From Moritella sp. PE36 (GTDB lineage Bacteria > Pseudomonadota > Gammaproteobacteria > Enterobacterales > Moritellaceae): a DNA stretch of 48,190 nt. Each line of letters begins with the position of its first letter. The stretch's first letter is position 1. Positions 12,343-34,521 of this stretch are shown here, in pieces. Under the pieces are notes generated by a model. The model had not been told where the DNA came from, did no database searches, and saw nothing but the letters and a program-made list of their open reading frames with translations. The stretch is taken from contig NZ_ABCQ01000037.1 in NCBI RefSeq assembly GCF_000170855.1, forward strand, positions 1 through 48,190. Reading direction: 5' to 3'. Made by a program: the position numbers and the translations under genes.

Positions 12343-12344
12343 TC

Positions 12345-13090: not shown

Positions 13091-13538
13091 GTGAACAGCC
13101 AGATAGGCAGCTAAGTAAAGCTTCCATAATCTTCGTATGGCCTTCTTCGCATGAACAGCCGGATAGGCAGCTAAGTAAATTTCCGTTATTCTAATAGCAC
13201 GATCAATTTTGTGAACAGCCGGATAGGCAGCTAAGTAAATTTCAAGCAGGATGAGAGGCTTGGCGTCGGCGTGAACAGCCGGATAGGCAGCTAAGTAAAC
13301 CACCTACAGTTAGAGCCAAAAACAGTCGGTGTGAACAGCCGGATAGGCAGCTAAGTAAAGCACAAAATCAAACAGGTTAACCCCATTATCGTGAACAGCC
13401 GGATAGGCAGCTAAGTAAATCAAAGGCGGTATTTTATTATGAAACCGAAGATGACCGCCGAGCAGGCAGTTGAGTTCAGGACTGGCAGTGAGCAATCACA
13501 TCAGATTACGTGTAACAGCCGAAAAGGCAGAGTAATTA
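13091..13538 (+). CRISPR. I-F3 CRISPR array of CAST-1: 8 repeats, 7 spacers
   Basis: Six typical 28-nt repeats start at 13091, 13151, 13211, 13271, 13331 and 13391 (GTGAACAGCCGGATAGGCAG plus CTAAGTAA; the first has one change and the second begins ATGAAC), with 32-nt spacers. Two atypical repeats follow at about 13450-13478 (ATGACCGCCGAGCAGGCAGT core) and 13511-13538 (TGTAACAGCCGAAAAGGCAG core). The spacer between them (13478-13510) is the probable homing spacer. Spacer 6 (13419-13450) reads in sense as part of a cas7 gene. Transcription should follow the cas operon direction. All eight stems have a mismatch opposite the GGCAG arm. Confidence 0.95.
13450..13538 (+). CRISPR. atypical repeat pair and homing-type spacer of CAST-1
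   Basis: The last two repeats keep only the GCCG...AGGCAG core. The enclosed 32-nt spacer starts AGGACTGGCAGTGAGC and shares 23 of 32 positions with the last spacer of the CAST-2 array. In I-F3 elements, spacers between diverged terminal repeats guide insertion into a fixed chromosomal attachment gene. The target gene is not in this window and I could not name it. Confidence 0.75.
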
Positions 13539-13565
13539 AAGTGTTATCCTTTTGGATTTTTAGGG

Positions 13566-13589
13566 CATAAAGTGAACTTTATGTTTTAA
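13566..13589 (+). terminator. possible hairpin terminator after the CAST-1 array
   Basis: CATAAAG TGAA CTTTATG is a 7-bp perfect stem followed by TTTT, 28 bases past the last repeat. The low GC content makes it weak. The same bases also resemble widely spaced Xer arms, which I judge less likely. Confidence 0.4.
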
Positions 13590-14012
13590 GTAAATGTGAA
13601 ATCCTTCAAGGGTACATTTTAAGTATAAATCAGGTGGCTATAAAAAGCACTTTTACGCGGTTTGAATAGTGTAGCTGCTTACCATCAATATGGCATGTAT
13701 CGAATATAAACATATAGATGGTGAGCAACACTGAGCATAGGATGCTGGATATGTTAAATGTCCTATTCGTTATAAATCTGTTAGCTACGGGATTAGATCT
13801 CAAGCGTGTTTGGTCTTCTTTACTCACTTCACAAGTTACCTCATCGTTCTGTCCAATTTCAATATGTTCAGAGTTTAGATAATTGCAGCTATTTACACGC
13901 TATTAAACATAAATACTATAATGCGCAGCGCCAAAAACCAACTCGATTAAAATGCCCCGCTAACAGCCTATTTCTCACAGACTAACCCTTCTAATAAGCC
14001 AAATATAGGTAA

Positions 14013-14056
14013 GATGATTTTGCACCATTTTGGTGAAGTTAGGTTTCAGGCTAAAT
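14013..14056 (+). repeat. motif shared, inverted, with the CAST-2 array flank
   Basis: GATGATTTTGCACCAT here is present as its exact reverse complement at 35589-35604. Similarity continues for about 27 more bases (CAGGCTAAAT here against CAGCTAAAA on the other strand). One copy lies downstream of each CRISPR array. Its function is unknown. Confidence 0.65.
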
Positions 14057-14108
14057 GTAACGTGAATATCCATTTTTATATGAAATACGATTAAGTTAAT
14101 AAGGTATT

Positions 14109-14137
14109 ACCTAAATTGCTAGCGCTTAGGTTTTTTT
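14109..14137 (+). terminator. rho-independent terminator
   Basis: ACCTAA...TTAGGT closes a stem over the loop ATTGCTAGCGC and is followed by seven T (14131-14137). It lies 80 bases before the TOTE gene and probably insulates it from the CRISPR transcript. Confidence 0.65.
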
Positions 14138-14216
14138 ATAGCTAAAGCCAAGCGGGCGACTACAGACTTTATTTATTATCTTAGACTTAGGTTATGATTT
14201 TATTGAGGTACTTCAT

Positions 14217-16568
14217 TTGTCAGTTATCACGGTTCAAGCTCATCTGTTGACTGAGTTAAAAGCTATAGATACTCGTCTTCAACAAATTGAAGTTGAAAAA
14301 CAGAAACTTTTAGCCAATAGAACAATATTACTAACGCAACAGAATCAGTCATCACCCCATAGCTCAATAACTACTGAACAAAAGGTTGAAATATTTTCAG
14401 GCCTATTTAAAGGGCGAAATGATATTTATGCCACAAGATGGGAAAACGCAAAGGGTAGAAATGGTTACGGTTTAGCTTGTGATAACGAATGGAAGAGTGG
14501 GGTATGCGCAAAGCCCAAAGTTAAATGTGGTGAATGCCCAAATCAACAATTTAAACCGCTCACTAAGCAAACCATTTATGACCATCTTTCAGGTAAAATA
14601 GTCGTCGGGCTTTACCCACTCTGTAAAGATAGTAGCTCCCATCTGCTTGCTATCGATTTTGATAAATCGGATTGGCGAGAATCGATTCAAGCTATATCCA
14701 AAGCATGTTCGGTTCATGATATTCCGCACGCAATTGAAATTTCACGCTCAGGCAATGGCGCGCATTTATGGGTGTTTTTTTCTGAGTCTATATCAGCCAA
14801 AATTATCCGGCAGCTTGGTTTTTTCATATTGGATAAAGCCATGGACATTCAACCCTCACTTTCTTTTGAGTCTTACGACCGATTGTTTCCCAACCAAGAT
14901 ACGATGCCTAATGGCGGATTCGGCAATCTGATTGCGCTCCCTCTACAACTGAAATCAAGAAATAACGGTTTTAGCTTATTTGTGGATGAACAATTAATGC
15001 CATATCCCGACCAATGGAACTTCTTGGCGAATATAAAACGTTTCTCACTAAATCAAGTACTCAAACTTATTGGTTCTTACCAACCAGCAACTACAAAAGA
15101 AGCATTTGAACTCACAGACCCGTGGGATACAACAAGTAAACCAAACCCCAATAGTGTAATACCTCAATGTCCTGCGGCCATAGAGTTAACATTAGCGAAC
15201 CATATTTATATACCAATTGAGTCATTGCCAAGTGCTTTGCTGACCAATTTAAAACGTATTGCTAGCTTTTCCAATCCCATATTTTTTAAAACCCAGGCGA
15301 TGCGCTTTTCTACGCATGGGATCCCACGGTATATTAGCTGTGCACATATTGAAAATGGCTATTTATCCCTTCCAAGAGGTTGCCTTGATGATGTAGTCTC
15401 ACTTTTAACGAATCAAAAAATTAGCGTCACTTTCTGTGAAAAAAGAACCAATGGAAAACCGTTAAATCAAATCAAATTCCTTGGTATATTGAGAGCTGAA
15501 CAGCAGAATGCTGTCGATGTTATGGCTGCACATGATACGGGTATTTTGCACGCGCCAACTGCTTTTGGAAAAACAGTTGCTGCTATAGGCTTAATCGCCA
15601 AGCGAAAAGTGAATACACTTATCTTAACTCACAGCAGACAATTGTTAGACCAGTGGAAAGAGCGGATCCTGTCATTTACTTCAGGTATTGATGTTGGTGT
15701 GTATGGTGGTGGGAAGAAAAATCCGACAGGGCAGGTAGACATCGCAACTTATCAAAGTCTCATTGATAAACGCGACAACTCAATATCAGAATTAACCCGA
15801 GAATATGGCCAAGTTATTATTGATGAATGCCACCATATTTCAGCACCTAGATATGAGATGGTGATCAATGAAATAAACGCTAAATATGTGCATGGACTAA
15901 CAGCTACACCAGATCGACAAGACGGACATCAAAAAATAATGTTCATGATAGCTGGCCCTGTAAGGCATAAAGTAATTTCAGACCATGGCAAAAACTTTAC
16001 TCAGACGGTCCATATAAAACAAGTAGACAGTCTGCCACCGCCAGAGCTTACTGACACAGATAAAAAACCGCATATCGCTTCTGTCTATCAATGGATCATG
16101 GGAAATGATGAAAGAAACCAACAAATTATTAGTGACGTAATCGACGCGGTTAATACTGGTCGTAATCCGCTCTTATTGACGGAAAGAAGGGAGCATGCCC
16201 AGATATTATTTAATACATTGGAAGCCAATAAACTGAGTGCTGTTATTCTTCGAGGTGCTATGAGGGTACAAGAGCGGGATGATGCGAATGAAAAATTAAA
16301 ACACGCTCAAGTGATAGTTGCGACAGGTAAGTACATTGGTGAAGGTTTTGATCTGCCTCGCCTAGATACATTATTTCTCACAATGCCGATATCTTGGAAG
16401 GGCTCACTTACACAATATGCTGGGCGTATACATCGACAATCGGAAGGTAAATTTGACACCATCATCTATGACTATGTTGATACTGAGCTACCAATGTTAA
16501 AACGGATGTTCAATAAAAGAAGCAAAAGCTATAAAATTATGGGATATGAGATTTTTATTTCTAAATAA
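14217..16568 (+). CDS. TOTE-type primase-helicase (AEP primase + SF2 helicase)
   Basis: This 783-residue protein has a probable TTG start at 14217, with GAGG about 10 bases upstream. Residues 1-45 form a coiled coil. Cysteines near 95-110 (GVCAKPKVKCGECP) form a small zinc site. The archaeo-eukaryotic primase domain carries DFD at about 146-148 and SRSGNGAHLWVFF at about 176-188. The SF2 helicase has Walker A PTAFGKT (about 446-452), DECH (about 536-539) and a C-terminal lobe with YIGEGFDLPRLD and QYAGRIHRQ. This fused architecture is that of the TOTE conflict systems, which also carry a separate nuclease. None is adjacent here, so it may act in anti-phage defence alone or in element maintenance. 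No frameshift is seen. Confidence 0.8.
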   Translation: MSVITVQAHLLTELKAIDTRLQQIEVEKQKLLANRTILLTQQNQSSPHSSITTEQKVEIFSGLFKGRNDIYATRWENAKGRNGYGLACDNEWKSGVCAKPKVKCGECPNQQFKPLTKQTIYDHLSGKIVVGLYPLCKDSSSHLLAIDFDKSDWRESIQAISKACSVHDIPHAIEISRSGNGAHLWVFFSESISAKIIRQLGFFILDKAMDIQPSLSFESYDRLFPNQDTMPNGGFGNLIALPLQLKSRNNGFSLFVDEQLMPYPDQWNFLANIKRFSLNQVLKLIGSYQPATTKEAFELTDPWDTTSKPNPNSVIPQCPAAIELTLANHIYIPIESLPSALLTNLKRIASFSNPIFFKTQAMRFSTHGIPRYISCAHIENGYLSLPRGCLDDVVSLLTNQKISVTFCEKRTNGKPLNQIKFLGILRAEQQNAVDVMAAHDTGILHAPTAFGKTVAAIGLIAKRKVNTLILTHSRQLLDQWKERILSFTSGIDVGVYGGGKKNPTGQVDIATYQSLIDKRDNSISELTREYGQVIIDECHHISAPRYEMVINEINAKYVHGLTATPDRQDGHQKIMFMIAGPVRHKVISDHGKNFTQTVHIKQVDSLPPPELTDTDKKPHIASVYQWIMGNDERNQQIISDVIDAVNTGRNPLLLTERREHAQILFNTLEANKLSAVILRGAMRVQERDDANEKLKHAQVIVATGKYIGEGFDLPRLDTLFLTMPISWKGSLTQYAGRIHRQSEGKFDTIIYDYVDTELPMLKRMFNKRSKSYKIMGYEIFISK

Positions 16569-16644
16569 CTAGCATTCACGCTAGTCACTTATATTCAGGA
16601 TATTAACAACAGGTCTGATACCGGGGGGCATCGTTGCAATGATG

Positions 16645-16795
16645 GTTTAGTACAATAGCACTAAGCCGTTTTTGCCCCCATTCTGGCTTAGAGTCCTTAC
16701 TCTGTCATAATATGTGCATATTGATTTGCCATACATTTTCTCATGTGAGGGATTGGAGCGATTTGTCATATCACAACTGCACCCGCTATTTGGCC
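16645..16795 (+). repeat. dispersed intergenic repeat, copy 4
   Basis: It contains GCACTAAGCCGTTTTTGCCC, GGCTTAGAGTCCTTACTCTG and TCATGTGAGGGATTGGAGCG. It is closest to copy 8 at 24716. A 67-codon frame at 16712-16915 runs through it and is not called. It lies in gene-free 16569-17014. Confidence 0.75.
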
Positions 16796-17014
16796 CCTGT
16801 AGCGAATTGTATCCCATATTACAAAAGCATTAGAAACAAGCTTTTCAATCAAAATAACGTGAAAGTTAGATTCACCATAATAGTACAAAATGATCCATCC
16901 AGAATTACGGGTTAAAATTGGTTTTTAAATGGTATGATGTTGTTAACTAAAGAGCTTCTATAACAGCTCGCCATTAATTTTAACTATTGATATAGATGAT
17001 AAGGAATTCACATA

Positions 17015-18007
17015 ATGATGAATCTAAAGAAGTTAAGTGTTGTATTGACCTTGGGGGCTACAGTGGCTCTTTCTGGTTGTGCAGGGCCTCGCTCTGTGAT
17101 GTCGATTACTCAAGATAAGATGGACTCGTTTGAGGATTACGACTTATCTATGGGAAAAGAAAATAACCACAGTGTTGCAATGCAATATATGCATTTAATC
17201 AGCAAAAAAAGAGTACACAAAGCTAATGACTTAGACGCGAACATGGACGGTTACACGAATGTCAGCGTGCGTACAACGCAGGCAGTGGCTGCCGTAGGTG
17301 TATTGGCTTCATCACTTAATCCTTTTCAAGCAATAGGCACTATTTTTGGTCAGCAAAGTAACTTGTCTAAGTTGCATTATATATATAAGCAAAATTTTAT
17401 TTTTACGATAAGTGCAGTTGCAACGTTATCAGATGCGGGAATACAAAAATCCTTAGATGAAAATCTAAACGTCATGACGGCTATTATCAGTGATGCCTAC
17501 AAAAAAGATGGTTCTGAAGTTATTGTAATGAAGAGAGGTATTAATTATGTTGTAATACCAACCAATAATGAGGGGAATATCGAACATTGTTTTTACCCTG
17601 AAGCAATAAATGACATTGCTTTAGTTAACCCTAAAGGAACTGAACGAGGGCGTGGTAATGATAATCGTGTCCACGGTTGCTACTCTAAAGTTTCTAAATA
17701 TGGGCTCCCGTATGCTTCAACTGGGGACAATGGCTTTGGATTGCCGCGTGGTAATTTCATGATTCAGTTAGCATACATCCCTGCCGCGTTTCCAATAGAT
17801 AAGCTTTCATCACCGCAATCTGGAGTCTATTTATATCAAACTTCACCGCGTTTTTTGAAAGATAAAAATTTACAGAATTATATCAAAAATAATAAACTGG
17901 ATGATATCGCCCCATATATTGTGGAACGATCAGCTTTTGTGAAAGTGCCAGTAATGACTGACTTGAATAGTGGCAAAAAACTTCAATTTGGAACGATTGA
18001 TAATTAA
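17015..18007 (+). CDS. hypothetical lipoprotein
   Basis: This 330-residue protein starts at ATG 17015 after AAGGAATTC. A signal peptide with lipobox ends at LSGC, so Cys22 should be lipidated and the protein anchored in the inner or outer membrane facing the periplasm. A small hydrophobic patch (AVAAVGVLASSLNPFQAIGT, about residues 90-110) may be an amphipathic or buried helix. No family is recognised. The gene stands alone with over 400 non-coding bases on each side. Confidence 0.75.
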   Translation: MMNLKKLSVVLTLGATVALSGCAGPRSVMSITQDKMDSFEDYDLSMGKENNHSVAMQYMHLISKKRVHKANDLDANMDGYTNVSVRTTQAVAAVGVLASSLNPFQAIGTIFGQQSNLSKLHYIYKQNFIFTISAVATLSDAGIQKSLDENLNVMTAIISDAYKKDGSEVIVMKRGINYVVIPTNNEGNIEHCFYPEAINDIALVNPKGTERGRGNDNRVHGCYSKVSKYGLPYASTGDNGFGLPRGNFMIQLAYIPAAFPIDKLSSPQSGVYLYQTSPRFLKDKNLQNYIKNNKLDDIAPYIVERSAFVKVPVMTDLNSGKKLQFGTIDN

Positions 18008-18127
18008 ATTGCAGATAAGCTAAATAATCAGTGCTTAAATGGTTTAGTTAAAGTTATTCGTGAGTTCATTAATCAAATATAGGGTTGTTTATCTGCAATC
18101 ATTAATCATGGATGAATGGCCGAGACC

Positions 18128-18262
18128 ACTGCGGATGACGCATTGTTGTGGTTAATGGGGGGTGAGGGCATCAGTTGGAATCCGTCACTTTTCCTATAAA
18201 ATATAATGAGTATTACTAGCGGCTAGAATAATAGCACTAAGCCAGTTTTGTCCATGAATGAG
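18128..18262 (+). repeat. dispersed intergenic repeat, copy 5 (partial), with a degenerate dif-like left edge
   Basis: ACTGCGGATGACGCAT at 18128 resembles a decayed XerC arm and spacer. It precedes the same left module (CCTATAAAATATAATGAGTA) that follows pdif 4 and pdif 5. It then runs to CACTAAGCCAGTTTTGTCCA and breaks off. No gene is seen in 18008-18524. Confidence 0.5.
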
Positions 18263-18524
18263 CAGCTAGTCAGCCTAACTCGAAACTGCCCCTTTATGTG
18301 CTAGAAAAAACTCATTTACTATCTATTAATGTGCGCTTTCCCTATCAAATTTAATCCGATTCAATTAATTGATAAATTATACTTCACTTAGCAGTCTATT
18401 CTATCAACATCCTTACTAAGAAATTGATTATAAATTGAAATGATAAATCAAAGGAGGCATGATGAGAGGATTGAAAGCGGCAGATAGCCGTCTAAGTAGC
18501 ATGAAATTTATTCTGGAGAGTTGA

Positions 18525-19376
18525 GTGTCTGAAATTATATATCACTATACCGATATTGGTGCATGTCAGAGTATGCTGACTTACAACAAGTTTTGGTTGA
18601 GCGCACATTCATTCCTAAATGATGAAAAAGAATACTATGAAGGTTTAAACATCCTTGAGGAAAAATTAAACTCTTACATTGGTAGTGTTGGAACATATTC
18701 TCAAGAAACGACACAAGAACTGCTATCGCACATCAAGGATGTAATGATCTATTCAACATCTTTTTCTCGTGAAGGTGATTTGCTATCTCAATGGCGTAGT
18801 TACTGCCCTAAAGAGGGCGGCGTTGCTATTGGTTTTGATAAAGCAATTTTAGAGCAACATCTTTGCGGTAGAAGAGAAGGAGTTAACTTTAGATACCTCC
18901 AAGACTGTTGCTATGATACGAAACATACAGATTGGGTTGCGGATACTATAGCCGAAGGGACTGTCAAGAATTTTGATAGAATGGGGTTATCAGCACACGC
19001 TCATTTCTCTCAAGAAAATACGTTCTTGGAAATGCTTACATTCTTAGCTCGAACCAAAAATTCTGCGTTTTCAGAAGAGGCAGAGGTACGCCTGTTTTCA
19101 TATGGGCATCGAGACTTAGACGTAATAAATACTCAAGAGATTAATAAATATCCTTCAATAAAACTTGTGAATCCAGAAGAAGTTTCGTTTAGACCAAAGC
19201 ACAACTTTCTAATACCGTTTCTCGCTATTGATTTCCCTCTAGAGGCAATAAAGGAAATCAAAGTCGGACCATCCAATTACCAAAGAGAAGCAATTGAAGG
19301 TTTACGAATGTTTTTAAAATCCAAGGGGATAGACATTTTAGTTTCTAGCTCCGATATTCCATATCGAGTGATTTAA
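18525..19376 (+). CDS. DUF2971 family protein
   Basis: This 283-residue protein starts at GTG 18525 with GGAGAG upstream. The N-terminal IIYHYTDIGACQSMLTYNKF and the following WLSAHSFLNDEKEYYEG match the start of DUF2971 proteins. YSTSFSREGDLLSQWRSY (about residues 84-101) and GVAIGF are further hallmarks. The biochemical role of the family is unknown; members occur often in genomic islands and next to defence genes. No membrane segment. It is a single gene. Confidence 0.75.
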   Translation: MSEIIYHYTDIGACQSMLTYNKFWLSAHSFLNDEKEYYEGLNILEEKLNSYIGSVGTYSQETTQELLSHIKDVMIYSTSFSREGDLLSQWRSYCPKEGGVAIGFDKAILEQHLCGRREGVNFRYLQDCCYDTKHTDWVADTIAEGTVKNFDRMGLSAHAHFSQENTFLEMLTFLARTKNSAFSEEAEVRLFSYGHRDLDVINTQEINKYPSIKLVNPEEVSFRPKHNFLIPFLAIDFPLEAIKEIKVGPSNYQREAIEGLRMFLKSKGIDILVSSSDIPYRVI

Positions 19377-19429
19377 ATTTAACAAACGCTTAAGGCTTCA
19401 AGATACCTTTTTAATCTGGTAGAAACGGT

Positions 19430-19560
19430 TTAGAGCTATATATCTAACTCGTTTTTGTCCAGTTCTAAGCTCTGTACCTGTTCCATTCTATGTGTTCCAT
19501 TCTATGTCGCTAAGCAGATTTTGTGATATTTTCAGTTAGCGCAATGAATCATTCGCAACC
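19430..19560 (+). repeat. dispersed intergenic repeat, copy 6 (diverged)
   Basis: TCTAACTCGTTTTTGTCCAG, TTCTAAGCTCTGTACC and GTCGCTAAGCAGATTTTGTG follow the family order loosely. The rest of 19377-19974 holds short open stretches without a start or family resemblance, possibly an eroded gene around 19590-19750. Confidence 0.45.
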
Positions 19561-19974
19561 TGTTCATGGTGCTTGCCCTGCCAAAAGTTATACGAATATT
19601 CGTAAGATGATGTGGCGAAAGGCTCTATGGTATCTCAATGGGTTACTATCAAAGATTAAACTGGTAGCATAGGTAAGCGATATGTGCGACTGAGTGTACC
19701 CGTTTGGTTCTTAGATATGCTCAAAGTTATAGAGTCCATAAGTGCAAATTAGCCCTACTGGGTATTGCCCGATCATGATTTGACCACCGTCATATGGGTA
19801 TACCTAATAGGTACAGTTGATATAAGTAGGGGATTCATGAGCTAAGCTCATAATGTTAACAGGAGTACTTTTGTACCCCTAGGCGCTTGACTCAAAACGG
19901 TAGGTTCATAAATGAATTGTTTTGAGCCAGTAGCAGCGCATCAGACAAGCGTGTTCCCAAAATAAACATCACAC

Positions 19975-21123
19975 TTACTGAGCATGCTCCTTGATGCAGA
20001 TAATTATTTGCTGTGCTTGCTTCTGCGCATCTTCTGAATATTCTTCTCCTTTAATGATATCTCTTAACTGCCTATTAACTTGGTTTAGATAATCCTTAAC
20101 CCTGCTCTTATCATCAATTCCCTTTAGTAGAGCTTTATCCCCACGCGGGGAAAGTGACATACGGAAGAATAAAACAAAGGGATGTCCACTAGGAAGTAGA
20201 CTGACAAGACAATCTAGTTCGAAAAGAATAGCTACAATGTTGTAGTGACCGTGAATAATATTGTTATATTTAGGCACATCTTCTCTACTGAAATAACTAA
20301 ATAGCTCAAATCCTAAATTCATAGGTGTATAGATGCCCATACTTTCACGTGGTGATTCTATACCACAAAACTCACTTAATGACTCAAAAATGTCTGCTGA
20401 GTGACTTCTCATAACCATTGGATCAATGACGTTTGCAAACACTTCGTCGTCATGAATTAAATCCCCAGTTCTTGGCGCTCTTATACACTTTAACCATAGA
20501 CACCCTGCGGTATTGAGAATCGTGAGTTCCACCTGATGAATAGGTGTTGGATTTGGTTGCTCTTTAAAACGGTATCCATCACCGTATTTAATTACCCTCC
20601 CACCGTGATAATCCCTTAAGATAGTGTCTATTTTATCAATATGTTTCCACGCTGAATTTAATGGGTGCGCTTCTGTCAGGTCGGATTGATTTAGCCTGTA
20701 TTTGTAATCTAAAAAGTCATTACAGAGAGAGTTACACGGGAATAATGACAAATACAATTTAATCCGATCTCCGAAAACATAAAAGTCTTTATGCTTATCT
20801 TCTAGAGTATCAAGTAACTGTTCAAACTGCGCTTTATGGTCTCTATAACGAGCAAAGTCTAAAGACTCTTCCTGCTTCTTCCAGACTCTTTCCTGATGTA
20901 TTACATTCTGTTTGTGCTGACGGTTTAGCATTATGAGAGAGCCTATCGTACCAATAGCTGCACCAAAAGTACTTACCGCAGCCAACCAAGTTCCAGCATC
21001 GCCTATCTCTAAGCTCCCCGCAAGCAACGAGTCCAGTATATAACCCAAGAGAATACCTCCAAATAGTATTCCAAATAGAGCTCCAACTACACTTGTTACA
21101 AAACATGTCACTATGTGTCTCAC
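19975..21123 (-). CDS. hypothetical membrane protein with a large cytosolic domain
   Basis: This 382-residue protein has a probable GTG start at 21123. Two N-terminal hydrophobic helices (about residues 8-34 and 47-66) are followed by a basic, heptad-rich linker (RQHKQNVIHQERVWKKQEES) and a helical domain of about 280 residues. This layout is common in putative phage-abortive-infection membrane proteins found in islands, but I see no catalytic motif, so that is only a suggestion. The gene reads against its neighbours and has long non-coding flanks. Confidence 0.6.
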   Translation of the reverse strand: MRHIVTCFVTSVVGALFGILFGGILLGYILDSLLAGSLEIGDAGTWLAAVSTFGAAIGTIGSLIMLNRQHKQNVIHQERVWKKQEESLDFARYRDHKAQFEQLLDTLEDKHKDFYVFGDRIKLYLSLFPCNSLCNDFLDYKYRLNQSDLTEAHPLNSAWKHIDKIDTILRDYHGGRVIKYGDGYRFKEQPNPTPIHQVELTILNTAGCLWLKCIRAPRTGDLIHDDEVFANVIDPMVMRSHSADIFESLSEFCGIESPRESMGIYTPMNLGFELFSYFSREDVPKYNNIIHGHYNIVAILFELDCLVSLLPSGHPFVLFFRMSLSPRGDKALLKGIDDKSRVKDYLNQVNRQLRDIIKGEEYSEDAQKQAQQIIICIKEHAQ

Positions 21124-21252
21124 TCGCGCCTAATCCATTGTTATTTTAAGTAAAACAATATATTACATGAGACAGGTTAAGTTATCTCTATATATTCAAA
21201 CGCATAAAGATTAATGAATGGTAAAAGCCAATGGATCTGGACTAAGGGCAAT

Positions 21253-21434
21253 ATTCTTAACAAGCGTGCTCCCTCTCGAAGGAGTCCCCTGAAAATGCAC
21301 TCATAAATTTCTACGATGATCTACTTATGAAATTCAGTTCTGAACAAGCCAAAATGTCGAATTGGACAATAACAGAACGTATACGTAAATTAAAACCCAA
21401 ACCACGTTATTGTGAAAGTTGTATAACAAGTTAA
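21253..21434 (+). pseudogene. short coding remnant ending at a cassette-like junction
   Basis: A frame open from about 21253 to the stop at 21432-21434 reads NFYDDLLMKFSSEQAKMSNW and then KLKPKPRYCESC, with a coding-like composition. Its only ATG leaves 35 codons. It ends in TATAACAAG, the usual left edge of an attC, followed at once by the dispersed repeat. It is probably a truncated cassette gene; family unknown. Nothing else is recognised in 21124-22094 apart from copy 7 and a possible attC half at 22003-22030. Confidence 0.35.
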
Positions 21435-25148: not shown

Positions 25149-25156
25149 ATTAAATT

Positions 25157-26791: not shown

Positions 26792-26955
26792 AAAACTAGA
26801 GGTAATAGGAACAATTTTAACTCTTATACTTTTGTCCGCTATAGAGTAAGAAGATTTAATGTTTATTTCTTTTATTATCGGTTCAAAAAATTTATCCTAA
26901 TGACTTACCTGAAGTCGGAAGATGATTTTGCCATAGATAAAGATATTATAACCTA

Positions 26956-26983
26956 ACTGCGTATAACGCATATTATGTTTCGT
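26956..26983 (+). other. dif-like XerC/XerD site (pdif 5)
   Basis: XerC arm ACTGCGTATAA, spacer CGCATA, XerD arm TTATGTTTCGT. As at pdif 4, the dispersed repeat's CCTACAAAATCTAATGTGT module follows within about 30 bases. Confidence 0.55.
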
Positions 26984-26994
26984 GGGAGTGAATG

Positions 26995-27135
26995 GAATCA
27001 CGCCCCCTACAAAATCTAATGTGTATTATCTCGGTTAGTACAATAGCTCTAAGCCACTTTTGTCCATCAATGGCTTAGAGCAGTTACTCATACTCAATAT
27101 CCTCACATTAATTTGCCATATATTTTGTTATAGAT
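26995..27135 (+). repeat. dispersed intergenic repeat, copy 9
   Basis: CCCCCTACAAAATCTAATGT leads to the best hairpin of the family: CTCTAAGCCA (27047-27056) and TGGCTTAGAG (27071-27080), perfect 10-bp arms. CAGTTACTCATACTCAATAT and TTAATTTGCCATATATTTTG follow. The remainder of 26792-27498 is AT-rich with no gene seen. Confidence 0.8.
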
Positions 27136-27498
27136 AATTCTGCTGATTAATCACAACTACTGTGAGTACATTTAGGCATGACTTGGATTTACAAAGATAG
27201 CAAAAATATATTATTTAACATGCCAAAACATCTAGTTTATCAATTGTTTATAACTACTAAGTAATTGATATTTAATCGTTATCTTTGTATTGGCAATGTT
27301 TACATGGGTCTCTATAAATACTGTTCTTGTTTTTATCCGTGTTTTATTTGATTTTGAATTACTATTCATCAATATCTATTTGTAATTTATAGTAAATTTG
27401 ATATTGTTGATAATTATTAAATTGAAATGGAATTCGCCTTATACAGAATTCGGTATAGTAAACTATTATGTTTTTAAATTTAGTCCCAAGGAACGGAA

Positions 27499-28125
27499 AT
27501 GAAAGTCGATTTAAAGTGGTGTGATTTAAAAAAAATTGGTGACACTAAGTTTGTAAATTCAATGTATATGTGGACCTTCGCTGTGCCATTGTTAGTAAAA
27601 GCTTTTGAATATGTCGAAGATGAAAAACTTATATTTCAAATTTTTCAGCAACAACTTCCAATAAGTACTTCATTGCCTTTTTCATGGAGCATGTTTTATT
27701 TCAGCGCTTTGTTCTTGGCCTTAGGTAATTTAATCTATTTGCTTAAATGTCCCAAAATAATTAAAGAACATCCCACTTATCAAAGTTATGTTAATGAAGG
27801 TAAAAAACTGAAACAGTTAGGTCCATATTGTGATGATATTTCATTCAATTGGGGGAAGTTAGCTGAAGAAATAGAACATAAAAATGAAAAAATAAAACTG
27901 GCAAAAAGGAGTATAAAAACAATTGGCTCTGTAGTAAATGAACCTGAAATCGATGTAGAAGATCCTATACACTATTTTTGGCCAATGCATGAATTTGGTG
28001 ATGTAAAATTTCCATTTTATAGACGTACATGCACAACACTTTTTATTGTTGGATTCACTTTATTTGGAATTGTTGCACTTCAAAATTTATGGGCTGTTGT
28101 TTCATTTTTAATAGCCAAAACATAA
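27499..28125 (+). CDS. hypothetical membrane protein, 208 residues
   Basis: ATG 27499 follows AAGGAACGGAA, a good ribosome site. Three hydrophobic segments lie at about residues 18-32, 65-84 and 181-206, and the middle is charged and probably cytosolic. No family motif is recognised. It ends directly at an attC site and is therefore a cassette gene. Confidence 0.65.
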   Translation: MKVDLKWCDLKKIGDTKFVNSMYMWTFAVPLLVKAFEYVEDEKLIFQIFQQQLPISTSLPFSWSMFYFSALFLALGNLIYLLKCPKIIKEHPTYQSYVNEGKKLKQLGPYCDDISFNWGKLAEEIEHKNEKIKLAKRSIKTIGSVVNEPEIDVEDPIHYFWPMHEFGDVKFPFYRRTCTTLFIVGFTLFGIVALQNLWAVVSFLIAKT

Positions 28126-28210
28126 CAAGTTGCTTAAACGGAACTAAAACAGTTGGTCATCGCTTCGCTATTTTAACCAACAATTTTAGCCCGCTTAGCA
28201 AGGCGTATAC
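28123..28210 (+). repeat. attC site
   Basis: ACATAACAAGTTGCTTAAAC, then CGGAACTAAAACAGTTGGTC paired with ACCAACAATTTTAGCCCG, ending AGCAAGGCGTATAC. It is closely related to the site at 1417-1518, and its core also lacks one T. Confidence 0.75.
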
Positions 28211-28221
28211 GCTTTTAGAGT

Positions 28222-29058
28222 ATGGAGACTTCATTGGCCAGATTAACCCCAAAACTTGAAACGATAAGAGCACTATTTGCACGCTCTGGAAATCAATGCG
28301 CATTTCCTGGTTGTGTCCATTCTCTGGTGAATGATAAGCAAAAGTTTATTGGTCAAGTTTGTCATATTGAAGCGGCAATGCCTGATGGAGAAAGGTTCAA
28401 CCCGCAACAAACCGATGAAGATCGCCGCTCTTATAAAAACTTACTTATTTTATGTTACCAACATCATATAGAGACTGATGAAGTTGAAGAATTCCCTGTT
28501 GAATTGATGATTAATATAAAACAGGAACATGAGGCTAATTTTCTTAAATCAGACTTCAAAATAGATGAAGCTGCATTACATAAATTAATGCGTGATGTTG
28601 AAACGTACTGGGATAAAATTGAAGTATTGAATACAGTTGAACATACTATGGAAGATTTAGCCTTTAGGGTTACAACTAAAGGTGGTTATATTCAGCTCTT
28701 TGATGATGCACGAGAAACCGTTGTCAGAATTGAAGAATTATTAGAAAGACTCAGTAAAAGTAACGATAAACTCCAAGATGAATTTATTAATTTTATAGAA
28801 GCTCATGGTGTAGATAGTACTATTTTCAAAGAACTCCCTTATTCAATCAGCCCTTTTAATATAAGGAACTGGGAGGACTTTTCTCTTAGCAGGCCAAATT
28901 GTTTGATACAAATAAGAATTGATTTGTTAACCGTCGAAATTAAATACTTAGAGGAATTTCTTAAAACAAATAGCCAAGATCAGCAGGCAATTGAATATTT
29001 AGACAATGCAAAAAAACAGTTAGCTGACATGGCTCAAAATGCTGTCATGTATGATTGA
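28222..29058 (+). CDS. HNH endonuclease domain protein
   Basis: This 278-residue protein starts at ATG 28222, 12 bases after an attC. Residues 16-85 form an HNH module: C26 and C31 (CAFPGC), CHIEAA with H48 as the likely general base, N73 in YKNLLILC, and C78/H81/H82 for metal binding. The C-terminal 190 residues are helical, with several coiled-coil stretches (VVRIEELLERLSKSNDKLQD). HNH proteins with helical tails are frequent in restriction and phage-defence loci, and a DNA-cutting role is likely. The target is unknown. A cassette gene. Confidence 0.75.
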   Translation: METSLARLTPKLETIRALFARSGNQCAFPGCVHSLVNDKQKFIGQVCHIEAAMPDGERFNPQQTDEDRRSYKNLLILCYQHHIETDEVEEFPVELMINIKQEHEANFLKSDFKIDEAALHKLMRDVETYWDKIEVLNTVEHTMEDLAFRVTTKGGYIQLFDDARETVVRIEELLERLSKSNDKLQDEFINFIEAHGVDSTIFKELPYSISPFNIRNWEDFSLSRPNCLIQIRIDLLTVEIKYLEEFLKTNSQDQQAIEYLDNAKKQLADMAQNAVMYD

Positions 29059-29061
29059 ATA

Positions 29062-29092
29062 AGCGTATAACAAACGGCTGCATCGGACAAAG
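29062..29092 (+). repeat. truncated attC left half
   Basis: GCGTATAACAAACGGCTGCA and TCGGACAAAG look like the left end of a Vibrio attC, but no matching right arm follows. The next gene's ribosome site begins instead, so a cassette junction was probably lost by deletion. Confidence 0.5.
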
Positions 29093-29105
29093 AAGGAGAT
29101 AACAC

Positions 29106-29651
29106 GTGCCAATCGTAAGAGACAACCGAGATGAACTATTTTTATTTGTTTTCTCTCCTGAAGGTATAAGCATTTCCAATCAGAATACACGTTTAATGGC
29201 AACACGTGCTGAAGTTGAAAAACTCAAATCAGTCTGTGAGCAGTACCTGCAAGAACTAACGGACGGTGACATAGCAGAATCCCACCAACAACAAAAAGAA
29301 GCATGGCGTCTAGAATGTGAGGAGCAAGAAGAGGAAATTAGGCAACTTAGATCCACTCTTACTGAACCAAAAAAGGGAAATGTTTATGTTATGCTCAATG
29401 CAAAAAACGGGCATTACAAAATTGGCTTTACAACTAAAGGGCCAAAATTCAGAGAACAAACATTGCAGTCACAAGAGCCTGAAGTACAATTGATAAAAGC
29501 ATGGATAGGTACAGACCAAGATGAAATAGAGCTTCATGAAATATTCAGAGCAAAAAGAATTAGAGGTGAGTGGTTCAGCTTACGGAAAAATGATCTAACA
29601 AAGATTGAAAACTACTTCAAATCTAATGCCCTAGAGACAAAAAATGCTTAA
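29106..29651 (+). CDS. T5orf172 (GIY-YIG superfamily) domain protein
   Basis: This 181-residue protein starts at GTG 29106 with AAGGAGATAA upstream. Residues 35-88 form an acidic coiled coil. Residues 91-175 match the T5orf172/MUG113 version of the GIY-YIG fold: GNVYVM (91-96), YKIGFT (104-109), a conserved arginine near 116, HEIFRAKRIRGEWF (144-157) with the acidic residue before WF. Nuclease activity is plausible. The gene abuts the HNH gene, separated only by a truncated attC. Confidence 0.7.
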   Translation: MPIVRDNRDELFLFVFSPEGISISNQNTRLMATRAEVEKLKSVCEQYLQELTDGDIAESHQQQKEAWRLECEEQEEEIRQLRSTLTEPKKGNVYVMLNAKNGHYKIGFTTKGPKFREQTLQSQEPEVQLIKAWIGTDQDEIELHEIFRAKRIRGEWFSLRKNDLTKIENYFKSNALETKNA

Positions 29652-29769
29652 CATCACCATTCGTATTACTTGAAGATGGGGTTAGGTCATTATCTAGAAT
29701 TCCTGCATCAAGCTACAATGTTTTGTTTGGTCAACATTCAGTTCGATATGGTAGTTTGAGAGGGAGGCC

Positions 29770-29965
29770 TTCACTTACCCTACAAAATCTAATGTATATG
29801 GCTATCGACTAGATTAATAGCACTAAGCTATTCCTGTCCATCAATGGCTTAGGCTGATCGCTCTAAGCCGTGTGCTCTAAGCCGAAACTGCCCCAAAGTG
29901 TATATGGAGCAGTAATTCAAATCACAATATGATCATCTCGGTTTGCCATATATTTTATCATGCGT
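29770..29965 (+). repeat. dispersed intergenic repeat, copy 10
   Basis: ACCCTACAAAATCTAATGTA, then GCACTAAGCTATTCCTGTCC, ATCAATGGCTTAGGCTGATC, two further CTAAGCCG units and ATCTCGGTTTGCCATATATT. Internal duplication of the CTAAGCC unit resembles copy 1. The rest of 29652-30250 has no gene. Confidence 0.8.
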
Positions 29966-30250
29966 TGAGATGTATCTGTATTATACAATTAAGAAGACAA
30001 TCTTTAATGGATATGATGTAAAACATTTAGGACATAACTTGCTAAAGATAGTATCAAGCCAATGATTAATTTGATTTTTTTACTTCCATAAGTTATCTTA
30101 TACATCGGCTTTATGGGAGCCCGCTCACCTCAACTGGCGAATTCTTTCGAGAACCACATACCGCTCAATGTAATTAATCTTATTACTGTTACGAGAATAG
30201 AAAAAATTAGAGGTGGATTTTATCGTATTTTCGAATAAGGAAATAAGACA

Positions 30251-30967
30251 ATGCCTGATATCACCACTAAAACATTTCTTTCTAACGTTAAGAAATCCGC
30301 TAAAGCCATCAAAAAAAACGACAATATCTGCCATGCACAAGCTCTAGACCGAGCTGCAAGAACACATGGGTTTGACTCGTATCACGCACTGAAATCTCGT
30401 ATTGACAATATCAACAATGAGTCCAATATCGTAAATTCCAATTTGGGTTCAGACGGTGTGAACGATCAGTATGCCAAAGCACAGGGCAACAGAGGAAAGC
30501 AGCTTAACCCAAATCAAAAAAGCTCACTATTAGTTGTATTCAATGATGATCTAATGCTTTATAGATGTAACTCTGAAAATGGTGAACTAATAACTGTCAG
30601 GGGAAATTTTCAAACGGAATACCTTGATAAGGGTTTTGCAGAGGATATTGGTGCAAGACAAGTGAGCCTCAACGAACTGAAGCATCGTTCTCTACAAGCT
30701 CCTGGTGGAAAACTTGGTGAAGACTTCCTACATAATTGGGGTTACACCTGTATTGAGTTCCTAAGAAACAAAGATAATCCATGGTCTATCGAAGATGCTA
30801 ATCAACTGGTAATAGAAAGAGTTAAATCAAAAATTGGCCAAGAATATCGTGAGTTTTTCTATCTTGATGGTGAGAAAGTAGATAACCATATTGGGGATGA
30901 AATGTCTCGATATCTGGACTTGATGGATGCTGAACCTGAATATCATCCAGCGATTGACGGCTATTAA
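30251..30967 (+). CDS. glyoxalase-related N-terminal domain protein, function unknown
   Basis: This 238-residue protein starts at ATG 30251 after AAGGAAATAAGACA. The first 55 residues (FLSNVKKSAKAIKKNDNICH followed by QALDRAARTHGFDSYHALKS) match a small helical domain that recurs at the N-terminus of plasmid and island proteins and is labelled glyoxalase-related in domain collections. The remainder is acidic and unassigned. No membrane segment. A stand-alone gene. Confidence 0.55.
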   Translation: MPDITTKTFLSNVKKSAKAIKKNDNICHAQALDRAARTHGFDSYHALKSRIDNINNESNIVNSNLGSDGVNDQYAKAQGNRGKQLNPNQKSSLLVVFNDDLMLYRCNSENGELITVRGNFQTEYLDKGFAEDIGARQVSLNELKHRSLQAPGGKLGEDFLHNWGYTCIEFLRNKDNPWSIEDANQLVIERVKSKIGQEYREFFYLDGEKVDNHIGDEMSRYLDLMDAEPEYHPAIDGY

Positions 30968-31081
30968 AATCAATTGATTTATATCGTTTATTTTTAGTCT
31001 TTTATAGGATTCAAGGTAAGTTAAGGAGGCGGAGTCAATGGCTCTGTTTCTACGTTTGACTAAATGCGAATCACTGTAATA

Positions 31082-31245
31082 GAAGGCGCTTTGTGCCACA
31101 AGCGCCTCAGCATCATCAATCCAAAACTACACCAATCACTATCGGCTTTATAATTGCTCCAACTCGATTCTGCCCCTAAATGGCTTAGAGTAGTTAATCA
31201 CATACAATATATTCATATCGGTTTGCCATACATTTATTATGCATA
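31082..31245 (+). repeat. second dispersed repeat copy b joined to dispersed repeat copy 11
   Basis: AAGGCGCTTTGTGCCACAAG and GCGCCTCAGCATCATCAATC match 2405-2505; the left part forms a GGCGCTT...AAGCGCC hairpin. It runs straight into the TGGCTTAGAGTAGTTAATCA and ATATCGGTTTGCCATACATT block of the main family. The following GTGAACGCAGTCTCGGTTTG recurs after copy 13 at 48110. Confidence 0.7.
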
Positions 31246-31519
31246 TTGAAAACTGTTCGACGAGATGATTTTATACCGTGTTATTGATATTTTGGTGAAC
31301 GCAGTCTCGGTTTGTCAAAAAACAGTCAGGTTTATCTTGTGACTGAAAAATAATATCAATATACTCAGATACATAGATAGTTTTGCATGTAACTTACAAG
31401 ACTAAATCAATAATTTGCAGGACGACTCGTTCTCCCAGAAATTTATAATCAATTAATTTTAAGTATAGCTTTATTTTTCAATTGATTAGTTACCTTTTGT
31501 AGTGATGAATGAATTTGGC

Positions 31520-31560
31520 AAATCGAGACGTCCTACTATACAAATGTTATACATCATCTC
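31520..31560 (+). other. possible cassette junction (attC right half)
   Basis: GACGTCCTACTATACAAATG followed by TTATACATC resembles stretches before the genes at 305 and 22095. It ends in a GTTATAC core-like sequence 13 bases before the next start codon. No left arm is visible. Confidence 0.35.
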
Positions 31561-31572
31561 GAGGATCGAATT

Positions 31573-32130
31573 ATGGATGATTTAGAAGTTTTCAGTAAAA
31601 AGTTGTCAAATGTTGCTTTCGAAATAACTCTTTATTCACAGCTCTACGGTACAAATGAAAGTGTTACAAAGTTAAACAATTTCAACCCACTAGTTTTTGG
31701 CGTTTTTCAAAAGAATATGTATGTGAGTATTTGTTTAGAACTTGCAAAGCTTTTAGATAAAGCTGGTGAAAAAAGTAATAAAAATCTGTCGATAGACAGA
31801 TTGGTTATTCATATGAATCTATCTGATGATAATGAAATAAAGAAGTTAATATACACAGCCATAGCTCTATATAAATCATCTATTAAAAAATTCAGAAATG
31901 AAGTAATTGCCCACAATGACTATGGAATGGCAATGAAGCGTAAAATCCTTCCTTCCAATGGAAACATAGATGATCTAGAAGAATTATGTAATTTGATCTA
32001 CGGAGTATATAGCGCGATTCGCTTTAAAACGGGCAAAGATTCCGTTCAAGTATCTCGTAGAGTTAGCACTGTGTTACCAAGAGAATTGGATGGCTACTCA
32101 TTTCTCCGTAAACTGGAAGAAAATGTATAA
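31573..32130 (+). CDS. AbiU2-like HEPN domain protein
   Basis: This 185-residue all-helical protein starts at ATG 31573 with GAGGA upstream. KKFRNEVIAHND (106-117) carries the HEPN-type RN...H motif (R108, N109, H114), the catalytic signature of HEPN ribonucleases. The overall layout resembles the AbiU2 family, associated with abortive infection. It would cleave RNA on phage attack, alone or with a partner (inference). No antitoxin-type partner is adjacent. It is a cassette gene ending in an attC. Confidence 0.65.
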   Translation: MDDLEVFSKKLSNVAFEITLYSQLYGTNESVTKLNNFNPLVFGVFQKNMYVSICLELAKLLDKAGEKSNKNLSIDRLVIHMNLSDDNEIKKLIYTAIALYKSSIKKFRNEVIAHNDYGMAMKRKILPSNGNIDDLEELCNLIYGVYSAIRFKTGKDSVQVSRRVSTVLPRELDGYSFLRKLEENV

Positions 32131-32186
32131 CAAGAAAATGAATGCGACGCTGAAGAGCGCGCCCATTATTTAAGCGTTAGTTTTAC
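32127..32186 (+). repeat. short attC site
   Basis: GTATAACAAGAAAATGAATG and GCGACGCTGAAGAGCGCGCC form a short hairpin, and TTTAAGCGTTAGTTTT carries the core GTTAGTT. It separates the HEPN and DUF4238 genes. Confidence 0.65.
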
Positions 32187-32201
32187 AATTGGCTTAGTTG
32201 G

Positions 32202-33191
32202 ATGAAAAACAGAAAAATAAAGAAAAATCAGCATTATGTACCAAAGTCTCACTTGAAGCGCTTCACTATTGATGGAGAGAAATCTTTGATTTGGGCATTT
32301 GATAAGATTAAAGGTGAGTATGAACGCCTAACCTCATCCATCAACAAAATCTGTGCTGAAGATTATTACTATTATCAGATAGATCCTAACGGAGACGTAG
32401 ATCATACACTGTTAGAGGATGTTCTTTCCGAAATTGAAATGGTTGGAAATAACCTAATTGATAAAATACTGGGTTCAAGATCTTTGCATTATGTCCCAAT
32501 AAATGGAGCTCAAAAAGGTGAACTAGCATTTTACATAGCACTTCTTATGTTCCGTGGACCAAGCTTTAGAGATGGAATCGCTGAAATATATGGACAAATT
32601 GCTAGGCAGACTCTTAATAAAGTTTGGGATAACGCGAAGGTTCCTAAACCTCTACAGGAGTTGGTTGAAAAAGAAGGCCTATCGAATGTTATTGATTTAC
32701 AAATAAACTCGACGGTTAGCTTGGAGCATATGGCAAAATCAGCTCAAGCGGCTGCTTTAGAGTTTCTTAAAAAGGAGTGGGTGTTAATTAATGCACCAGA
32801 AGGTTCAAATTTCGTAACTGGCGATGTTCCTGTTGTTTTTTCCCCATATCACCAAAGTGTAGGAGATGTCGGTCCTGCTCATCCATTAGCAGAAATTCTA
32901 TATCCAATATCAAAAGATACTGCTTTGATACTTACACCTTCAAATGATCCAAAAGAGTACATACTCGTGGGTGAGTATAATGATGCACTACTACATGAAA
33001 TCAATACAAAAATTAGCGGTGCAGCCACTAAGTATGTATATAGTTCTGAAAAATTTAATTGGCTCGTATCCTCATCGAGAACTCTGGGAAACGGTCAGCG
33101 TTTAGTTTCAAATGTCGCATCTCAAGGTATTAGTATTGTTAAGAACCCTTGGAAACGTAAAACTAACAAGCAAAAGCAGGTAGACGCATAA
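32202..33191 (+). CDS. DUF4238 family protein
   Basis: This 329-residue protein starts at ATG 32202. The N-terminal KKNQHYVPKSHLKRFTIDGE followed by WAFDK is the hallmark of DUF4238 proteins. VTGDVPVVF (about residue 206) and PISKDTALILTP (about 245) are further family-like stretches. The QHYVP-type N-terminus suggests a metal- or nucleic-acid-binding site, but the family's reaction is unknown. Members are common in islands and cassettes. It ends at a truncated attC. Confidence 0.7.
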   Translation: MKNRKIKKNQHYVPKSHLKRFTIDGEKSLIWAFDKIKGEYERLTSSINKICAEDYYYYQIDPNGDVDHTLLEDVLSEIEMVGNNLIDKILGSRSLHYVPINGAQKGELAFYIALLMFRGPSFRDGIAEIYGQIARQTLNKVWDNAKVPKPLQELVEKEGLSNVIDLQINSTVSLEHMAKSAQAAALEFLKKEWVLINAPEGSNFVTGDVPVVFSPYHQSVGDVGPAHPLAEILYPISKDTALILTPSNDPKEYILVGEYNDALLHEINTKISGAATKYVYSSEKFNWLVSSSRTLGNGQRLVSNVASQGISIVKNPWKRKTNKQKQVDA

Positions 33192-33305
33192 ATGCGCCAC
33201 TGTTTTTCGCGTTAATCTCAATTTCATCATACTTTATATAATGTGAAGCGTTCTCTTTGAAGCATAAGCACTAAGCCGTTTATGTCCAATTTCGTGTTTG
33301 GAGGT
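33186..33305 (+). repeat. truncated attC joined to dispersed repeat copy 12
   Basis: ACGCATAAATGCGCCACTG and TTTTTCGCGTTAATC make a small attC remnant. The repeat starts at GTTAATCTCAATTTCATCAT and reaches GCACTAAGCCGTTTATGTCC before breaking off, shortly before the transposon-end sequences. Confidence 0.65.
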
Positions 33306-33381
33306 ATGCATTTACCTTTTGGGCCACTACAGTTGTCGTAAATTATAACAGCCTAAAGTTAGTAAGTTTACTACATGAAAT

Positions 33382-33523
33382 GAAGCATAAGCTGTCTACA
33401 AATTTTATTGTGACAATTTATGCTTCATTTTAGTGACAGCTTATGGATGTAGATAATTTATATGTTATTGAATAGGGGGACTATGGAGAGGTATTCTTTG
33501 GACAACTTATGCTTCAAACTACA
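33382..33523 (+). mobile_element. Tn7-like transposon end with TnsB-type sites (end of CAST-1)
   Basis: Four copies of a 15-bp motif occur: GACAATTTATGCTTC (33412), GACAGCTTATGGATG (33435), GACAACTTATGCTTC (33501) and one inverted, GAAGCATAAGCTGTC (33382). The last direct copy is followed by AAACTACA ending at 33523, so the inward-reading terminus is TGTAGTTT, with the TGT of Tn7-like ends. The homology to cas7 begins right after it. GTCAG (33524-33528) is the predicted 5-bp target duplication. The matching left end is not in the window. Confidence 0.7.
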
Positions 33524-34521
33524 GTCAGCAATCGGGTTACACGGATGGTTATAATAAAGATTTCACAATTAAAAAATTGGATGAACATGCATTGGCTCAG
33601 GCAAGTATTCATCGTGTTGAATCTTGCTTCGTACCGATATCAATTCAAGAAGTTTATTGCCGCTTTTCATTACGAGTTAATGCGCATTCATTATCTCCCG
33701 AGGTATGTAATTCAGATATAAATCGACAAGAATTATCACAGCTAGCTGAGCTTTATAAAGATAAAGGTGGCTATAAAGTCTTAGCCCTAAAAATAGCCAT
33801 TAATATCCTGCGTTGTAATTGGTTGTGGCGTAATAAGAATACGTGTCCTACATCGCTTAGAATTAGAACAACTAACGATAACATATATCATATTTTAGAT
33901 TGCCTGGATTTATTAACGTTAAAAGTGAGTGATTGGGAAAGTGATGCTCAGGTAGTCTTAGATCAATTCAGTGATGAGATAGCTCATGCTTTATCACATG
34001 ATGGTAAGTATTGGTCGGCTGATATTAAAGCTAAGCTATTACCAACATTTTCCCACGAGATTTTTCCAAGTCAGAAATTCATTGAGAATAAGGGTAATAG
34101 TAAAGAGCAGGGGAAGAAAAGCCGAATATTAGCGACGACGTTAACACCTAGTGGATATGAGACTGTCTGTATGACTGGGTATAAAGTTGGGGCAGCGCTT
34201 CAGTTTATTGATACTTGGTGGGATGATAATGCCGATTATGCAGTGAGGGTTAATGAGTATGGCATTGATCAAAAAAAGGTTATTCCATTACGCACACCTG
34301 CCAAGGGAAATGACTTTTACACCTACTTTAATCATCAGGTACCTAACTTCATTGAAGAGTTTATGCAAGTAGGTGACGCAGATACAATACCACCTTCAAT
34401 TCATTATTTCATGTCAGTATTAGTGAGGGGGGGGATGTTTCAAACTAAGAGCGAGAAGGTTGAGAAGAAAAAACTAAGTGCTTCGAAAACTAAAAAAGTA
34501 TCAGCCAAGGAGGCAAAGTAA
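33524..34521 (+). pseudogene. cas7f: cas7f of CAST-2, 5' end removed by transposon insertion
   Basis: From the transposon end the frame reads SQQSGYTDGYNKDF, aligning with SKSGFGDAYNTDG of the intact Cas7 (residues 45-57), and continues co-linearly to the stop, including VESCFVPISIQEVYCRFSLR, CNWLWRNKNTCPTS and HYFMSVLVRGGMFQ. About 45 N-terminal codons are missing and should lie beyond the other end of CAST-1. The first in-frame ATG is 33577. The C-terminus has an extra lysine-rich tail (KVEKKKLSASKTKKVSAKEA) absent from CAST-1 Cas7. It is adjacent to an intact cas6f. A shortened Cas7 would lack its N-terminal strand and is unlikely to build a filament. Confidence 0.85.

Follow-up and report, generated by a model that had tools for sequence, protein, structure and literature searches.

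Introduction

The chromosomal genes ffs and rsmJ serve as sites of type I-F3b CRISPR-associated transposons (CASTs), according to passages of PMC11406308. In the ffs-homing members treated in parts of PMC11406308 and PMC12774636, TniQ, Cas8/5, Cas7 and Cas6 are combined with a TnsA-TnsB fusion, TnsC and an Xre-like gene, and the array consists of ordinary spacers and a last ffs spacer with diverged repeats. The ordinary spacers are described mainly as a means of moving onto mobile plasmids (passages of PMC11406308), and in a Shewanella survey their targets also included prophages and Mu (part of PMC12452197). In this study, we analyzed a stretch of 48,190 nucleotides from Moritella sp. PE36 (NZ_ABCQ01000037.1), which carries one such element, CAST-1, and part of a second, CAST-2. 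The gene set and array of CAST-1 are like those above. The locus differs from them in that one ordinary spacer appears to be directed at the cas7 gene of another CAST, and in the fusion of two CASTs whose end sequences differ. We propose that CAST-1 was inserted into the cas7 gene of CAST-2 under the guidance of its own spacer 6, and we hold this reading at a probability of roughly 0.8.

A natural insertion next to the site of a guide that is still carried in the element's own array is also seen on the Aeromonas salmonicida plasmid pS44-1 (NZ_CP022176), in a CAST which we take to be Tn6900. There, one spacer of the array is identical to a plasmid gene at 32/32 positions, CC stands before the protospacer, and the tnsA-side end begins 48 nt on. 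On pS44-1, a plasmid gene was targeted and its protospacer is still present, whereas here the target would be a gene of a rival CAST and the protospacer is lost. Guides of mobile elements aimed at a competitor are likewise described for type IV systems of plasmids and for viral mini-arrays (passages of PMC11656645); those silence or cleave, whereas here the attacker would insert into the effector gene of its rival. Among openly licensed papers, none was found that describes a CAST aimed at another CAST.

Results

Spacer 6 of CAST-1 resembles a conserved stretch of cas7

The stretch under study, called the window, is the entire contig C95 of a genome of 131 contigs and 5,223,088 bases. Along it lie the tniQ, cas8/5, cas7 and cas6 genes of CAST-1 (7972-12968), its array (13091-13539), about 20 kb of cargo and a Tn7-like end that reaches 33523. 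Past this base follow the 3' part of the CAST-2 cas7, a second cas6 and a two-spacer array (33524-35434). The products of CAST-1 and CAST-2 were 46% identical for cas7 across the shared part and 43% identical for cas6.

A preliminary description of this DNA had noted that spacer 6 of the CAST-1 array (13419-13450, plus strand) encodes a Cas7 motif in sense, and this observation was confirmed. The coordinates apply to a 28-nt repeat; a 29-nt repeat shifts them by one base. The spacer reads A TCA AAG GCG GTA TTT TAT TAT GAA ACC GAA G, and its sense frame gives SKAVFYYETE, the motif found at the N-terminus of type I-F3 Cas7. As described earlier, the intact cas7 product has SQGVFYYESEDN at residues 19-30. 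All six frames of spacer 6 were compared with a profile built from 67 I-F3 Cas7 proteins; the window's own cas7, L214 (truncated) and L152 (an outlier) were excluded from it. Spacer 6 reached 27.6 bits at the Cas7 N-terminus, and none of 2000 base shuffles (maximum 17.9) or 2000 codon-order shuffles (maximum 18.7) scored as high.

The spacers of other CASTs were surveyed with profiles of tnsAB, tnsC, tniQ, cas8, cas7 and cas6. Arrays were present in 70 of 73 loci, some of which are the same genome twice, and yielded 202 distinct spacers of 30-34 nt. Spacer 6 scored 27.7 and the next best spacer 18.6, while the maximum of 606 shuffled spacers was 21.7. Spacer 6 alone exceeded this null, and no other CAST-directed spacer beyond it was found among the 202. 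Judged from these profile scores, this locus truly carries a guide against a core gene of a CAST, and such guides are rare.

At the DNA level, the resemblance was weaker. A wider profile search returned 64 I-F3 loci, and the DNA of spacer 6 was compared with 70 distinct I-F3 cas7 open reading frames (ORFs). The best match fell at the homologous cas7 site in 45/70 genes; 40 shuffled spacers reached up to 29/70. The cas7 of CAST-1 itself has a spacer-6-like site at 11358-11389, which is 21/32 identical and has CC upstream. Neither a perfect protospacer of spacer 6 nor its source gene was found in the assembly, phages, plasmids or fetched cas7 genes. Against phages and plasmids, spacer 6 gave matches at chance level only in that part of the array. 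In the viral contigs, a degenerate spacer-6 pattern had 0 matches and the CAST-1 cas7 query had no relative. A scan of the assembly with up to 3 mismatches returned the spacer itself only; the segment due to hold the protospacer is missing from it.

The junction at 33523 lies where a spacer-6 insertion would be expected

The array-side end of CAST-1 (33380-33523) has TnsB-like sites at 33380, 33412 and 33501 and the outer terminus ...CTACA at 33523. As the preliminary description had stated, this end directly abuts a cas7 gene without its N-terminus. The end ...CTTCAAACTACA stops at 33523, and the cas7 frame of CAST-2 resumes with (GT)CAG CAA TCG GGT, aligned with SKSGF of the intact protein. 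Position 33523 is a true transposon terminus, the same ...CTTCAAACTACA abutting the ffs flank in the relative G004. GTCAG (33524-33528) is presumably the target duplication, whose partner copy would have been lost.

With the 70 cas7 ORFs as a ruler, the spacer-6 site ended 45 nt before the junction in 66 and 42 nt before it in 3, while 1 truncated ORF gave no value. Together with the 5-bp duplication, the insertion would lie 50 bp from the protospacer by 66/70 of the ORFs and 47 bp by 3/70, and the earlier measurement of 45 bp, or 50 bp with the duplication, thus held on the wider set. Preferred insertion positions have been published as 46-52 bp from the protospacer (part of PMC10201428). The dinucleotide just upstream of the spacer-6 site was CC in 46 ORFs, GC in 19, TC in 3, AA in 1 and AC in 1. 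The CC protospacer adjacent motif (PAM) is frequent there because the preceding codon is a conserved proline in many cas7 genes. The orientation also agreed with the earlier account, in that the tnsA-side end of CAST-1 would face the protospacer, as it does in pS44-1 and at ffs. An insertion of CAST-1 into the CAST-2 cas7 by spacer 6 fits the identity of the guide, the PAM context, the distance, the orientation and the transposon end.

CAST-1 could also have entered this cas7 unguided or by another guide, with spacer 6 resembling cas7 for unrelated reasons, for example an origin as a guide against a third CAST. The missing perfect protospacer is in keeping with such a course, but spacer 6 fits the distance, the PAM side, the strand and the orientation alike, and we regard it as very unlikely.

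The tnsA-side end of CAST-1 lies at ffs

An 828-aa ORF with TnsA- and TnsB-like parts was found on a separate contig, C75, adjoining a 336-aa TnsC-like ORF. It is the sole CAST-type tnsAB found in the genome. Because the two contigs are unjoined, we assigned this tnsAB and TnsC to CAST-1 by end sequence, of which 20 nt are identical between the tnsA-side end on C75 and the end at 33523. The tnsA-side end begins directly behind ffs, GTGCTTTT/CTTCGTTTGAAGCATAAGTTGTCC, the slash marking the boundary. C75 stops within an xre-like gene, and the ends of C75 and C95 matched no other fetched contig.

On the other side, the composite exits at 47781 (...TTCATTGGACA/CTTTTCGCG). In 9/10 congeners, the ffs flank is uninterrupted and reads GTGCTTTTC[GT]CGTTT. 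It follows that CTTTT has been duplicated around the composite, with a left copy on C75 (L022:10309-10313) and a right copy at 47782-47786, and that everything from the C75 end to 47781 lies within ffs. The repeats of the 47781 end, TGTCCAATGAACTCAAGGTTGGCATAAGG, are unlike those of CAST-1. G009 has an end of the same family at ffs (TTTGAACTAGATGTTGGCATAAGG), with a truncated tnsA behind it. We therefore take 47781 to be the array-side end of CAST-2 (47680-47781; repeats ATGCCAACCTTG[AG]GTTCATT, outer terminus ...GGACA) and conclude that CAST-2 was the first settler of ffs. Both elements have a last spacer directed at ffs. That of CAST-1 (13478-13510, plus strand) lies between diverged repeats and matches ffs at 22/32 positions, and that of CAST-2 (35375-35406, plus strand) matches at 21/32; 0/2000 shuffles were as good in either case. 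The present layout is therefore ffs, CAST-1 tnsA-side end, tnsABC, the assembly gap, CAST-1, its array-side end, the CAST-2 cas7 3' part, cas6, array, cargo and end, and the ffs flank. What is present now is a rearranged composite and not a simple nested insertion.

Since CAST-1 has its tnsA-side end and a guide for this site, it may merely have homed to ffs in front of a resident CAST-2, whose left part was later deleted with a right breakpoint that fell in cas7 by chance. The assembly, which holds no intact nested copy, is compatible with this. However, the deletion must then have halted exactly at the terminal base of the CAST-1 array-side end, and the cas7 breakpoint must have fallen within a few positions of that predicted by a guide of the same array. 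We roughly estimate this coincidence alone at a few in ten thousand, and homing to ffs without a guided insertion into cas7 is unlikely.

The outer letters of the ffs end on C75, CTTTT?TTCGTTTGAA, matched the other-family end of G009 at all but one of 16 positions, and its inner letters are those of CAST-1. This supports a single deletion, the two ends looking as if spliced at a short common stretch. A different second step would be recombination between two CAST-1 copies, one homed to ffs and one placed in cas7 by spacer 6, with loss of the intervening stretch; the guided insertion itself is unchanged. Both insertions would have the same orientation, and tens of kb of identity recombine easily. 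However, the ffs end lacks the TGT of a fresh insertion, which leaves CTTCG unexplained, and its agreement with the G009 end favours a hybrid end from one deletion. We consider such recombination possible but doubtful. That two CAST-1 copies are still present and were merged by the assembler was considered and rejected, because single contigs run through both joints, the one at ffs and the one at 33523, without a break, which would speak against it.

The tnsA-side ends at ffs in this genus, on C75 (L022:10309-10325) and in G009 (L134), both lack the terminal TG of TGT (CTTCG and TTTCG versus TGTCG). This is possibly due to selection on the ffs terminator or to a hybrid end. As controls for the geometry at ffs, 12 genomes were queried, of which 7 had an ffs match. 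The distance from the ffs protospacer to the end is 51-52 nt here, and the first TGT in the expected stretch came at 47 nt in G174 and 51 nt in G068. No clear end at ffs was seen in G088 (TGT at about 40 nt by eye, unmatched by a stricter pattern), and neither G306 nor G072 matched the ffs-end pattern at all.

Isolated sequences of similar type were also observed. In G004 (L102:237-307, reverse strand), the solo relic of a CAST-1-type array-side end, 71 bp long and 96% identical to that of the window, adjoins a second ffs flank copy located roughly 1.2 kb from ffs. In the PE36 genome, two CAST-1-like TnsB sites form an isolated inverted pair (C129:169523-169569, L013) between unrelated genes, and no transposon genes were seen nearby.

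Components of CAST-1

CAST-1 has the consecutive tniQ, cas8/5, cas7 and cas6 genes with a short array next to them, the TnsA-TnsB fusion with TnsC, and the ffs-directed spacer with diverged repeats in an element at ffs that mark type I-F3b. Its components are ordinary I-F3b CAST parts. The genes of this row all lie on the plus strand: tniQ (7972-9207; Pfam TniQ PF06527, 55 bits), the cas8/cas5-type gene (9201-11312; Pfam Cas_Csy2 at residues 438-583, 24-38% to I-F3 cas8 regions of other loci), the intact cas7 or csy3 (11305-12342; Pfam Cas_Csy3) and cas6 or csy4 (12345-12968; Pfam Cas_Csy4). The array, on the same strand, comprises six like repeats and then the two diverged repeats that flank the last spacer. 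Spacer 1 (13119-13150, plus strand) matches a hypothetical gene of five Aeromonas plasmids at 30/32 positions (E 3e-3). No Pfam family of Cas1 or Cas2-Cas3 was found in the 30 of 46 listed window ORFs that were scanned; the remainder of CAST-1 lies in the assembly gap.

The cargo of CAST-1 (14217-33191) encodes a TOTE primase-helicase, DUF2971, lipase, OmpA-like, HEPN_AbiU2 and DUF4238 proteins, along with unnamed genes. Defence cargo is represented by the TOTE-type primase-helicase conflict gene at 14217-16568 and by HEPN_AbiU2 at 31573. Termination of CAST-1 right behind its array was rejected as a candidate, no TnsB-like site being present there within 3 mismatches.

Remains of CAST-2

The surviving genes of CAST-2, all on the plus strand, are the 3' part of cas7 without the N-terminus (33524-34521; Pfam Cas_Csy3 from profile position 62, and alignment to the intact cas7), cas6 (34522-35136; Pfam Cas_Csy4, 43% to that of CAST-1), the array (35287-35434; two spacers) and the cargo (36029-47451), which holds a Sel1 protein, a long repeat protein and two ABC transporter genes. 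Within this cargo, four 756-bp tandem repeat units (38752-41319; compared 300-bp parts 99% identical) sit in a 1615-aa ORF beside the ABC transporter genes.

The assembly was searched for a second cas7 5' part, cas8, tnsAB, tniQ and the tnsA-side end of CAST-2, and none was found; nor did the 40 smallest contigs (115,227 bases), with blast included, hold any of the missing half. The only other TniQ of the genome was considered as that of CAST-2 and rejected, as it belongs to an unrelated Tn7-like element on C110, and a second tnsAB-type match (27%) was rejected as part of the same element. This separate element (C110:20466-23889; L024, L067) has TnsB-, TnsC- and TniQ-like genes unrelated to both CASTs. 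The CAST-2 cas7 protein had no match in the genome_contigs collection and, the window's own aside, distant matches only in 11 genomes of the genus. The best matches were 43% in 394 genomes of the order and 42% in plasmids.

Dispersed repeats in the window

A 74-bp repeat has 8 copies in the window (2240, 3572, 16672, 21540, 24790, 27059, 31169 and 47947), in both cargo regions and the flank. It has many further copies in the genus and is integron-like or similar to a miniature inverted-repeat transposable element. Paired inverted stretches, TTAAACGGAAC...TTAGCCAAC, at 1431-1517, 23893-23975 and 28129-28208 resemble cassette recombination sites and are presumably attC-like. An inverted repeat (76%) lies behind each array (14012-14056 and 35561-35605); with relatives elsewhere in the genus, it is a dispersed element.

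Discussion

In this study, we found a guide that resembles a conserved stretch of cas7 and, in the same locus, a transposon end joined to another cas7 at the position that this guide predicts. We suggest the following course. Two type I-F3b CASTs would have met in one chromosome. CAST-2 would have come first, homing to ffs by its ffs spacer, as its array-side end and CTTTT at ffs indicate. CAST-1, with a guide derived from an I-F3-type cas7, may then have entered the CAST-2 cas7 about 50 bp downstream of the guide's site, tnsA-side end first, as the junction suggests. This insertion would have disabled CAST-2. Later, the stretch from the CAST-2 tnsA-side end to the CAST-1 tnsA-side end would have been lost, probably by deletion between the two ends at their common letters TTCGTTTGAA next to ffs. 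The outcome would be CAST-1 transposition genes at ffs with CAST-2 as a tail.

Several points weigh against this account. The protospacer is gone, so that a match of spacer 6 to the cas7 of CAST-2 itself is unproven, and the nearest relative found for that cas7 is the CAST-1 cas7, at 46%. The DNA of spacer 6 is identical to the fetched cas7 genes at 24/32 positions at best, and shuffles reach 22/32. GTCAG has no partner copy, the other side being outside the assembly. The tnsA-side end of CAST-1 lies at ffs and not in cas7, and a second event must therefore be assumed. This end has CTTCG in place of the TGTCG or TGTAG of other ends. Finally, contigs C75 and C95 have no physical join.

The preliminary description had proposed that CAST-1 inserted itself into a rival cas7 with its own spacer. 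The guide, the PAM context, the distance, the orientation and the transposon end fit this; the simple nested layout that went with it does not stand. Its statement that target, guide and product lie in one locus was too strong. The guide and one product junction survive, and the target is lost, the cas7 5' part with the protospacer not being in the assembly. It had further placed a cas7 5' fragment and a GTCAG copy at the far end of CAST-1, and had named their lack as grounds for giving up its reading; neither was found, and the far end lies at ffs. The cas8 and tniQ genes of CAST-2, which it expected beyond the other end of CAST-1, were not found in the assembly.

We did not place the guided insertion higher because the protospacer is unseen, GTCAG is unpaired, the contigs are unjoined and the cas7 5' fragment is absent at the far end of CAST-1. 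For the same reasons, we consider the odds about even that the locus records a guide-RNA war between CASTs, in which a CAST-1 guide against a conserved, PAM-bearing stretch of cas7 would have knocked out the effector of the rival, ffs would have been taken over, and the rival's cargo, array and outer end would have been kept as a tail. If this is true, a spacer against the effector gene of another CAST, with a junction as predicted, would mean that guides are also used to disable rivals for the same few homing sites. It would also explain how elements with different end sequences escape mutual target immunity and become fused.

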